Of a stretch of 33,105 nucleotides of DNA, positions 25,305-28,545 are shown in pieces. The notes beneath the pieces were generated by a model, which did not search any database, was not told the DNA's origin, and was given only the letters and a program-made list of their open reading frames with translations. This stretch comes from Gammaproteobacteria bacterium. Its GTDB lineage: Bacteria; Pseudomonadota; Gammaproteobacteria; Steroidobacterales; Steroidobacteraceae. The position numbers were made by a program, and so were the translations under genes. Positions within the stretch are counted from its first letter, which is position 1. Each line of letters opens with the position of its first letter. The stretch covers positions 1 to 33,105 of the forward strand of contig JAOUGW010000010.1 of the NCBI GenBank assembly GCA_029865465.1, given 5' to 3'.

Positions 25305-26341
25305 CCAGTGCGCCGTTGCTGCGCGTGCGCGACCTGGGCGTGGATTTCTCCACGTCGCAGGGCGTAGTGCAGGCCGTGTCCGGCGTTTCGTTCGACGTTC
25401 GTGCCGGTGAATGCCTTGCCGTCGTCGGTGAGTCGGGGTCCGGCAAGACCCAGGTGCTGCTGGCGTGCCTGGGCCTGCTCGCGTCGAACGGCACGGCACG
25501 AGGATCCGCCCTGTTTGCAGACCGGGAACTGATCGGTGCGGGCGAACGCTCGCTCAATGCGGTGCGCGGCACCGGCATCGGCTTGCTGACGCAGGACCCG
25601 CTGAGTTCACTCACGCCGCACCTGCGCATCGAGACGTTGCTGACCGAAGGCCTGCTCGATCGCGGTCTTGCCACTCGCGCTGCCGCCCGTGAGCGCGCGC
25701 TGCAGGCGCTGCGCGACGTGGAGATCGCCGATCCGGAGTCGCGCCTGCGGCAGTATCCGCACGAACTGTCCGGCGGCATGCGCCAGCGCGTCGCGCTCGC
25801 GGCTGCCCTCATGTGCGGTCCGCAGCTGCTGTTCGCGGACGAGCCGACCACCGCGCTCGACGTCAGCGTGCAGGCACGAGTGCTGGAACTGCTCGCGCTC
25901 GTGCGCAGCCGTGGCGTCGGCATGTTGCTCGTCACGCACGATCTCGGCGTGGTCGCGGGGCTCGCGGATCGGGTCGCGGTCATGTACTCGGGCCGGATCG
26001 TCGAGACCGCGACCACGGACGAGTTGTTCCGCGCACCAAAGCATCCTTACACGGCGGCGTTGCTGGCGGCCGTGCCGCGACTGCACGGCGTGGCTCAGTC
26101 GCGGCTCGTCGGGATCGCGGGGGATCCGCCACAACCGTCGGCGCGTCCGCCGGGTTGCGCGTTTGCGCCGAGGTGCGGGCGGGCGGTCGATCGATGCAGC
26201 GATTCGCGCCCCGAACTGACAGCGAGCGCTGAAGTCAGTCCATTGACGACCGCGCAGGGCGACTCGATGGACGGACGAGCCTGGCCCATCACCGCGGTCG
26301 CGTGCCATCGGCCGTTGCAGGATCGGGCGGAGATTGCATGA
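25301..26341 (+). CDS. oppD: Oligopeptide ABC transporter ATPase OppD
   Basis: ATG 25301 overlaps the oppC TGA. Walker A GESGSGKT, LSGGMRQRVALAAAL, C-terminal GDPPQPSARPPGCAFAPRCGRAVDRC. ORF-track start 24461 is too far upstream. Confidence 0.92.
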   Translation: MTSAPLLRVRDLGVDFSTSQGVVQAVSGVSFDVRAGECLAVVGESGSGKTQVLLACLGLLASNGTARGSALFADRELIGAGERSLNAVRGTGIGLLTQDPLSSLTPHLRIETLLTEGLLDRGLATRAAARERALQALRDVEIADPESRLRQYPHELSGGMRQRVALAAALMCGPQLLFADEPTTALDVSVQARVLELLALVRSRGVGMLLVTHDLGVVAGLADRVAVMYSGRIVETATTDELFRAPKHPYTAALLAAVPRLHGVAQSRLVGIAGDPPQPSARPPGCAFAPRCGRAVDRCSDSRPELTASAEVSPLTTAQGDSMDGRAWPITAVACHRPLQDRAEIA

Positions 26342-26388
26342 GCACCGGCTTGCTGCTGCTGCTGCCGCACGACAGGGAGATCGCGTGA
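26338..26388 (+). CDS. Candidate 16-aa linker mini-ORF (MSTGLLLLLPHDREIA)
   Basis: ATG overlaps the oppD stop (ATGA); its TGA overlaps the GTG start of oppF (GTGA); preceded by GGCGGAG. Confidence 0.4.
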   Translation: MSTGLLLLLPHDREIA

Positions 26389-27242
26389 GCACGACGTCGA
26401 CCCTGTTGCAGGTGGAGCGGGTCAGCGTGCGCTATACGCTGCGGGGTGCCGGGCTGCTCGCGCCGGCACGCGCGCTGGAAGCGCTGTCCGACGTCTCCAT
26501 CGCGATTCCCGAAGGCGGCCGGCTCGGCGTCGTCGGTGAGTCCGGGTCGGGCAAATCGACGCTCGCGCGGGTCCTGCTCGGGCTCGTGCGCGCGCAGGCA
26601 GGGCGAGTGGCGTGGGAAGGTCGCACGGTCGATTACGACGACGCGACGGCGATGCGCTCGCTGCGGCGCGAGCTGCAGGTGGTTTTCCAGGACCCGTTCG
26701 GCAGCCTCGATCCACGCATGACGGCGGGGCAGGTGGTCGGCGAGGCATTGCAGGCGTTGGCCGGTCCGGTGGCTACGGTCGCGGCACAGGACCGCATTCG
26801 GGCGGCGTTGTCGGAGGTCGGGCTCGCGCCGGCTTTCGCCAACCGCTACCCGCACGAAATGAGCGGCGGGCAGTGCCAGCGGGTCGCGATTGCACGCGCG
26901 ATCGTCGCGCGACCGCGCCTGCTCGTCTGCGACGAGGTCGTGAGCGCGCTCGACGTGTCGGTGCAGGCCCAGATCGTCAACCTGCTGCACGAGCTGAGCG
27001 AGCGGTACCAGATGTCGCTGCTCTTCATCAGTCACAACCTCGCCGTGGTGCGGCATCTCTGCGACGACGTCGCCGTGTTGTGCCAGGGGCGGGTGGTGGA
27101 GCAGGGTAGTCGTGACGCCATCTTTGGCGACCCGCAGGTGCAGTACACGCGCGAACTGCTGGCGGCCGTGCCTGAGCCGGATCCGACGTTGCAGCGGGCT
27201 CGTATCGCGTTGGCGGTGAACGTGAGCCGGGTGAAGCGATAG
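26385..27242 (+). CDS. oppF: Oligopeptide ABC transporter ATPase OppF (short C-terminus)
   Basis: GTG start with AGGGAGA upstream; GESGSGKSTLARVLLGL, VFQDPFGSLDPRMTAGQVV, MSGGQCQRVAIARAIVARPRLLVCDEVVSALDVSVQAQ. Confidence 0.9.
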   Translation: MSTTSTLLQVERVSVRYTLRGAGLLAPARALEALSDVSIAIPEGGRLGVVGESGSGKSTLARVLLGLVRAQAGRVAWEGRTVDYDDATAMRSLRRELQVVFQDPFGSLDPRMTAGQVVGEALQALAGPVATVAAQDRIRAALSEVGLAPAFANRYPHEMSGGQCQRVAIARAIVARPRLLVCDEVVSALDVSVQAQIVNLLHELSERYQMSLLFISHNLAVVRHLCDDVAVLCQGRVVEQGSRDAIFGDPQVQYTRELLAAVPEPDPTLQRARIALAVNVSRVKR

Positions 27243-27253
27243 AAGGCGGCGTG

Positions 27254-27393
27254 TTCGGTGTCTTTTCCGGCCCGCGGAAAGGCAGATACGCGGGCCGGAA
27301 AAGACACCGAACCCACCGCTCGAAACGCAGCGCGTGAGCTCGTTCCCGCCGTTGGCGGGAAACACGCACGGCGCCCGCAGCCTGAACCGGATT
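27254..27393 (+). repeat. Two-hairpin structured element, copy 1
   Basis: Hairpin A: TTCGGTGTCTTTTCCGGCCCGCG-gaaaggcagata-CGCGGGCCGGAAAAGACACCGAA (perfect 23-bp stem, 27254-27311). Linker ACCGCTCG...GAGCTCG. Hairpin B: TTCCCGCC-GTT-GGCGGGAA (27343-27361). Then CGCACGGCGC (27365-27374). Confidence 0.8.
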
Positions 27394-27528
27394 CGAATCA
27401 GACGGTCGATTTTACCAATCGGAGGCTCCGCAACCCGGTAGCGTGTAGCGGTTCCTATTACGGACTGACGGCGCCACAACCACGTATCCGCGCACGGCCC
27501 TGCGAGCCGGGTGTGGCTGGTGACGCTG

Positions 27529-27668
27529 AACCTGGTTGATGTCGCTTGCGCCGTGCGACGTTTTCGGTCCTCGAAAACGAGCGCAGGCGCGGCCTCGCGA
27601 GCGGTCGATCCAGTGGTTCTTCCCGAGCGCATGTCTGTCTTTCCGCGCCCGGGAAGAACCACTGGGTC
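27529..27668 (-). repeat. Two-hairpin structured element, copy 2 (inverted relative to copy 1)
   Basis: Hairpin A: 27607-27625 pairs with 27650-27668 (19 bp, one T/G). Minus-strand loop CGCGGAAAGACAGACATGCGC matches copy-1 CGCGGAAAGGCAGATACGCG. Hairpin B: CGTTTTCG-gtcct-CGAAAACG (27559-27579). GCGCCGTGCG (27548-27557) is the reverse complement of copy-1 CGCACGGCGC. Confidence 0.8.
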
Positions 27669-27819
27669 GGCCGCCGGGACTTCGGCGCCGAATGCCGCTT
27701 TACAGACCGGAAAACACCCTGAGGACCGTAGGGAAATCCCGCGGTTGGAATCCGTCCAGCGCTGTGGTTATCTGCGAACTTGATTGTTGCGCCAGCGAGG
27801 CGCAGCGACGGAGCGACGC

Positions 27820-28545
27820 ATGCACATGGAACTTGGCCTGCTGGTGCTGACGGCCGTTTCGATCGGCTTCGTCCACACCGTGCTCGGGCCCGACCATTAC
27901 CTGCCGTTCGTCGCGATGTCGGCGGCACGCAACTGGACGCGCCGCAAGACCATGCTCGTCACCGCGTTCTGCGGCGCCGGACACGTGCTCGGCTCCATCG
28001 TCATCGGCTTCATCGGCATCGCGATCGGCGCGTCGCTGCACCGCCTGCAGTGGCTCGAGGGCCTGCGGGGCGACCTCGCGGCCTGGGCGCTGATCGCATT
28101 CGGTCTCGTCTACATGGCATGGGGACTCAAGCAGGCCTGGCGCAGCCGGAAACACTCTCACGAACACGTCCACGCGGACGGCACGCGCCACCGGCACGTG
28201 CATGGCCATCACACGCAGGACGAACATGCCCACGTCCACATCCAGCTCGACACCGACAACGTCCGCAGCATCACGCCGTGGGCGCTGTTCGTGATCTTCA
28301 TCCTGGGCCCTTGCGAGACGCTGATCCCGCTGCTGATGTATCCGGCCGCCCAGCACAGCTGGTGGGGGCTCACGGCGGTGGTCCTGGCCTTCGCGACGGC
28401 GACGATCGCTACGATGATGGCGGTCGTCTACCTCGCCACGCGCGGCCTGGAACGCCTCCCGCTGGCCCCGGCCGAGCGGTACGTCCACGCCCTGGCCGGC
28501 GCTGCCCTAAGCCTTTGTGGAGTGGGCATCGTCCTCGGCCTCTGA
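27820..28545 (+). CDS. NicO/RcnA-like (nickel/cobalt or related cation) membrane transporter with His-rich loop
   Basis: MHMELGLLVLTAVSIGFVHTVLGPDHYLPFVAMSAARNW; loop HSHEHVHADGTRHRHVHGHHTQDEHAHVHI; FVIFILGPCETLIPLLMYPAA; SD-like GGAG before the ATG. Confidence 0.7.
   Translation: MHMELGLLVLTAVSIGFVHTVLGPDHYLPFVAMSAARNWTRRKTMLVTAFCGAGHVLGSIVIGFIGIAIGASLHRLQWLEGLRGDLAAWALIAFGLVYMAWGLKQAWRSRKHSHEHVHADGTRHRHVHGHHTQDEHAHVHIQLDTDNVRSITPWALFVIFILGPCETLIPLLMYPAAQHSWWGLTAVVLAFATATIATMMAVVYLATRGLERLPLAPAERYVHALAGAALSLCGVGIVLGL

Follow-up and report, generated by a model that had tools for sequence, protein, structure and literature searches.

A probably REP/BIME-like family of extragenic palindromes, dispersed in genomes of a single uncultured genus only, whose long hairpin appears to be exchanged as a module

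What kind of element gives rise to two inverted copies of a two-hairpin unit whose stems differ in sequence yet remain self-complementary? Such a pair occupies a gap between two genes in the window, the stretch of 33,105 nt of gammaproteobacterial DNA analyzed here. A sequence-only reading had described two inverted copies of roughly 140 nt, had attributed the covariation-like pattern of their stems to selection on structure, in RNA or single-stranded DNA, and had noted a resemblance to the inverted doublets of BIME/REPIN elements. The pair is real, and repeats, folding and covariance model concur on its bounds (Table 1). The units measure ~137 nt each, the model placing them slightly wider than described. 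The linker identity, the identical CGCACGGCGC and the different but self-complementary stems had been seen correctly. Unit 1 begins 3 nt past the stop of an OppF-like gene; the downstream gene, taken to be NicO-like in that reading, gave a weak DsbD_2 match below cut-off in Pfam and nothing else. Both units folded far more stably than shuffles (z of -7.2 and -7.5), and 0 of 200 shuffles matched either. A tRNA search of the window found none. The pair is also present at the orthologous locus of the congener G007, where both units align whereas the middle between them is hardly alignable; in G001, G003, G006 and G008 the gap between the corresponding genes yielded no unit.

Table 1. Coordinates of the unit pair, its parts and the adjoining genes in the window
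Feature	Position	Strand	Details
Unit 1 (hairpin A, linker, hairpin B)	27245..27381	+	covariance-model match 118 bits, E 1e-20
Unit 2, inverted	27541..27675	-	covariance-model match 122 bits, E 1.5e-21
Hairpin A, unit 1	27246..27319	+	31-nt arms (27246-27276 / 27289-27319), 94% complementary, around 12-nt loop GAAAGGCAGATA
Hairpin A, unit 2	27601..27674	-	30-nt arms (27601-27630 / 27645-27674), 90% complementary
Linker, unit 1	27315..27340	+	20/26 identical to unit 2 linker
Linker, unit 2	27580..27605	-	20/26 identical to unit 1 linker
Hairpin B upper stem, unit 1	27343..27361	+	TTCCCGCC gtt GGCGGGAA; arms TTCCCGCC/GGCGGGAA at 27343-27350/27354-27361
Hairpin B upper stem, unit 2	27559..27579	-	arms, in + coordinates, CGTTTTCG/CGAAAACG at 27559-27566/27572-27579
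Hairpin B conserved 3' base, unit 1	27365..27374	+	CGCACGGCGC
Hairpin B conserved base, unit 2	27548..27557	-	CGCACGGCGC on - strand
Middle between both units	27382..27540	.	from alignment with orthologous locus of G007
Upstream gene, OppF-like ABC transporter ATPase	26334..27242	+	Pfam ABC_tran 7e-32, oligo_HPY 4e-5
Downstream gene	27784..28545	+	possible ATG start 27820

The unit is repeated in the genome that carries the window (G000; 3.36 Mb in 367 contigs, 91% complete), where copies were counted through searches. A BLAST search gave 90 matches, and a direct loop-plus-stem search gave 65 hairpins. A covariance model (R1) built from an alignment of 29 units (A1) gave 107 matches, roughly half of them antisense readings of the same palindromes. 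The units are thus dispersed in about 55-65 copies, and with tens of further copies a chance origin of the pair in the window is excluded. In the consensus, hairpin A has a stem of ~31 bp around the loop GGAAAGGCAGACAC, which falls into a 12-nt or an 18-nt class. It is followed by the linker and by hairpin B, whose base GCGCC-TGA ... AC-GGCGC is invariant and whose upper stem is variable, short or long. Units occur singly or in inverted pairs. In pairs, hairpin A is always outermost; the spacing of the A hairpins ranges from 15 to 343 nt and the middles are mostly unconserved.

Several variants accompany the family. Full hairpins of the 18-loop class are often preceded, in a step of 57 nt, by a half copy made up of the 5' arm and the loop without the 3' arm; recombination between loop motifs in direct orientation would be expected to leave such half copies. 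Tandem half copies (arm plus loop, 57-nt period) lie outside the full hairpin at L117, L119, L122, L135, L152 and L154; since the partner arm is missing, these can no longer form a stem. The 12-loop single units L034, L035, L041, L046, L125, L128-L130 and L132 have ~200 nt of further common sequence downstream of hairpin B that stops near GCAGACGGTCAACGGGGAATAACGACCC; they may represent a longer form of the element. A second repeat, of the CCTCTCCCGC ... GCGGGAGAGG / CCCTCACCCG type, often adjoins units (L036, L047, L038, L188 and others), outside hairpin A.

The search of genome and relatives with a covariance model, which had been suggested as a check, turned up further copies in the congeners as well as in G000. 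Among the eight congeners searched, R1 found at least 55 matches in G007 (78% complete), 53 in G004 (85% complete), 27 in G006 and 1-6 in each of four others. No unit was found in the congener G003 (estimated 100% complete), in 51 further genomes of the family or order, or in 368 other genomes of the class sample. Across 84,980 species genomes the exact pattern occurred in two MAGs only, S06.Bin044 and LacPavin_0920_SED3_MAG_66_26, both proteobacterial and one labelled Gammaproteobacteria. The B-core pattern had one match in each of four other genomes outside the genus (1 match for a reversed control pattern), and the matches listed lacked the stem. In viral contigs the A-B pattern had no match and the B-core pattern 4. 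G006, a distant congener, has another loop but the same B base. Rfam 15 gave only matches below the gathering score, miRNA models first, as expected for any long hairpin, and no Rfam family was accepted. The family is previously undescribed, confined to one uncultured genus and without a credible Rfam match.

We next considered the genomic context. With gene calls from a GC-frame heuristic, 142 of the 157 detected A hairpins were intergenic. The 34 pairs with an assigned context lay between convergent (23), tandem (9) or divergent (2) genes; of the single units, 33 lay between convergent and 4 between divergent genes, and of those between tandem genes 13 came after the upstream gene and 4 were turned the other way. 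By orientation, 121 units follow a gene in the same orientation and 27 do not, a bias that follows largely from the convergent-gene setting. REP elements have a similar setting, one that would remain if purifying selection removed copies from promoters and genes.

The covariation between stems proposed from the window is genuine. In A1, 93.7% of the cells were paired, as opposed to 74.7% after shuffling, and two-sided changes occurred in 32 of 44 pairs. Sliding the partners destroyed the signal, which lies far above both controls. Its cause was addressed by three tests. Distinct mismatch events, counted in 150 hairpins of 92 orthologous groups, comprised 98 of A.C type, 40 of G.U type and 57 of transversion type. 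Most of the A.C excess arose at a handful of positions in the 18-loop class, and the 12-loop class was near even (19 vs 15). A sense-strand RNA under selection should show more G.U than A.C; the opposite was seen, which argues against stepwise RNA compensation. Second, 70 orthologous A pairs with nearly invariant loops showed 203 two-sided and 95 one-sided changes. Transitions and transversions were about equally frequent among the two-sided changes (100 and 103) but not among the one-sided ones (67 and 28; Fisher p 7e-4). Since G.U intermediates yield transitions only, half of the two-sided changes fall outside that route.

The third test concerned the replacement of entire hairpins. The loop class had changed at 21 of the 70 orthologous A positions. 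In 23 orthologous pairs with a swapped hairpin A, conservation of the B region was 0.76, compared with 0.775 in A-conserved pairs and a background of 0.64, and it exceeded the 95th percentile of the background in 15 of the 23. For example, L040 of G000 and L110 of G007 carry unrelated A hairpins, whereas the B hairpins next to them, on either side of the pair, are nearly identical. The reverse is seen as well: within one genome, identical A arms are found at separate loci beside different B hairpins, and in 48 of the 70 pairs the nearest A arm of one member was a same-genome paralogue, not the orthologue. At L049 and its counterpart G007:C221 (L201), G007 has a new complete hairpin and, behind it, no more than the 3' half of the old one, which may represent an intermediate in module replacement. 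Note that the genomes are fragmented metagenome assemblies, so that some apparent module swaps could stem from mis-joins at repeats; as a general cause mis-joins are unlikely, because unique flanks stand on both sides. The three tests speak against a sense-strand RNA hairpin that was selected step by step. Together, the wobble, spectrum and module-replacement results favor DNA copying between loci and between arms, by gene conversion or template switching. Template switching is an established mutational mechanism that makes and repairs perfect hairpins (PMC8794818). Purifying selection is visible mainly on the A loop and the B base. Of the earlier proposal, the covariation thus stands; selection on RNA structure is not supported in the form put forward, given changes that are concerted across both arms, indifferent to wobble and rich in transversions, and hairpins that are replaced whole at conserved positions.

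These results bear directly on readings in which the transcript is what matters. A structured RNA (3'-UTR stabilizer, RNase III site or antisense RNA) under compensatory selection would account for the strong covariation and for the preponderance of units that follow a gene in the same orientation, and on the antisense strand wobbles would exceed A.C mismatches by 98 to 40. However, wobbles are under-represented on the sense strand, transversions make up half of the two-sided changes and entire hairpins are swapped, while the orientation bias stems largely from the convergent setting, the single units between tandem genes being split 13 to 4. A bottom-strand RNA, in which the A.C mismatches would be wobbles, was rejected, as a few positions of the 18-loop class account for most of the excess, which is nearly absent from the 12-loop class. 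We therefore consider a structured RNA unlikely. Intrinsic transcription terminators of a peculiar kind would fit the location after genes, the stable stems and the convergent settings, but a T-tract follows hairpin A in 0 of 150 units on either strand, and a family of only about 55-65 copies, with none in one congener, makes this reading very improbable.

The explanation that we favor, with a probability of roughly 0.6, is a family of extragenic palindromic repeats, dispersed in one genus only and resembling REP elements and BIME mosaics, in which hairpin A is exchanged as a module. The family would have spread as non-autonomous DNA, with hairpin modules that would be recognized, or become exposed, in single-stranded or cruciform form. 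Copying of A modules between loci may occur by ectopic gene conversion or re-insertion, and the arms would be kept identical by templated copying from the other arm or from another copy, that is by template switching, rather than by successive selected compensations in RNA. The likeness to REP/BIME in behavior stands; conservation of the loop and of the B base might just as well reflect binding by a host protein. An unlikely variant is that hairpin A would be a self-contained DNA cassette, inserted into and removed from fixed intergenic addresses by an unrecognized hairpin-specific recombinase or repair route of the genus, with precise replacement of the old hairpin and B staying in place.

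Spread of REP-like repeats as non-autonomous DNA raises the question of mobility and of candidate movers. G000, G004 and G007 have most unit positions in common, flank identity being about 82-96%, and recent movement has therefore been limited. The sole clear empty site is at L189, where G000 has a unit and both G004 and G007 have ~40 nt of other sequence in its place; the boundaries are not clean and no target duplication is seen. Empty-site searches at L031 and L036 gave no clear counterpart in congeners and a left flank absent from congeners, respectively. The sequence-only reading had pointed to RAYT/TnpA-REP genes, and this link did not hold: no unit lies in the loci surrounding the 6 Y1_Tnp genes of the genus, and no Y1 transposase was detected in G004 (53 unit matches; 85% complete) or G007 (at least 55; 78% complete). 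Unit-free G003 has one Y1 transposase gene. The Y1 gene of G000 (G000:C186:5017-5352, L051) is flanked by 25-nt inverted repeats, AGGGAAAGGTGCCGGTGTTACGTTT, 88% complementary, in a TIRYT-like arrangement. A retron or other reverse-transcriptase element was rejected, as RVT_1 was present in G004 and G007 only and not found in G000 (91% complete). No transposase or recombinase tied to the family, and no autonomous copy, was found around the Y1, integron-integrase and reverse-transcriptase genes examined.

Two readings invoke a mobile element of another type. In a MITE-like element, the inverted pair would be one element with the units as terminal repeats, moved by a transposase in trans. The inverted ends with A always outward, the dispersal, the copy-number differences between congeners and the empty site at L189 are all consistent with this. 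Against it, units are often single, the A spacing within pairs varies widely around mostly unconserved middles, the ends vary from copy to copy, the one empty site lacks a target duplication and no autonomous partner adjoins the genes examined, so that we regard this reading as improbable. Alternatively, the units might be attC-like sites of the G000 integron integrase (G000:C14:226-1167, L237; 456 bits). A partial match exists in G004 (G004:C340:10352-10984, L238; 261 bits, below the curated cut-off) and none over the cut-off in unit-free G003, and attC sites likewise keep structure while their sequence varies. However, RYYYAAC...GTTRRRY boxes occur in 0 of 150 units, the units are dispersed between ordinary genes with none near the integrase genes, and the G004 integrase is adjoined by a HigBA-like cassette and ordinary-looking attC sites of another kind. 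An integron-related origin is thus hardly credible.

Covariation in hairpins is usually taken as proof of a functional RNA. A palindromic repeat family of the type favored here is a natural bacterial counter-example: its strong covariation goes along with mismatches that do not favor wobbles, two-sided changes rich in transversions and module swaps, all of which point to copying of DNA. Three close congeners with many common positions provide a test bed for palindrome upkeep by template switching and gene conversion, and the family provides one for the origin and spread of REP-like repeats without an evident transposase.

Among known systems, REP and BIME elements (PMC3733652, PMC2817692) are likewise dispersed, extragenic, palindromic and mosaic, often in inverted pairs and strongly uneven between related species. 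The proposed likeness to BIME/REPIN doublets holds in this respect, the units being dispersed, mostly extragenic palindromes in inverted pairs with A outward. The suspicion that they differ from described REP families was also borne out on the features tested, by the missing GTAG tag, linked RAYT and credible Rfam match. GTAG families have stems of 5-13 bp and CGTC families stems of 8-9 bp (PMC3733652, PMC2817692); in contrast, the present family has variable stems of ~31 bp and a conserved loop of 12-18 nt. In 150 units, GTAG was found at 6 5' feet and 1 3' foot and CTAC at 4 and 4, and with neither tag nor associated RAYT, membership of the GTAG type was rejected. CGTC was found at 19 5' feet and 14 3' feet, and the CGTC type (stem 8-9 bp, loop 4-5 nt) was rejected on stem and loop length.

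REPINs share the inverted doublet as unit and compensatory changes in the hairpin, described there between conserved parts (Bertels and Rainey 2011, PMC3116915). The REP palindromes of REPINs keep their sequence and have associated RAYTs (PMC3116915), whereas here the long outer palindromes themselves vary, and no Y1 transposase gene was detected in G004 and G007, the genomes richest in units after G000. TIRYT-associated terminal inverted repeats (PMC3733652) are similar as longer palindromic repeat families in genomes with Y1 transposases, but the G000 Y1 transposase has terminal repeats of its own, different from the unit. Integron attC sites also keep structure over sequence; in contrast, the present units have no R boxes or cassette array and do not adjoin an integrase. 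Hairpins maintained by template switching (PMC8794818) show the same multi-base symmetric changes and perfect stems without G.U intermediates. These were described in RNA genes, whereas the present family also exchanges hairpin modules between loci. Thus, very long variable stems, a conserved loop, a second hairpin with a conserved base and the replacement of hairpin A set this family apart.
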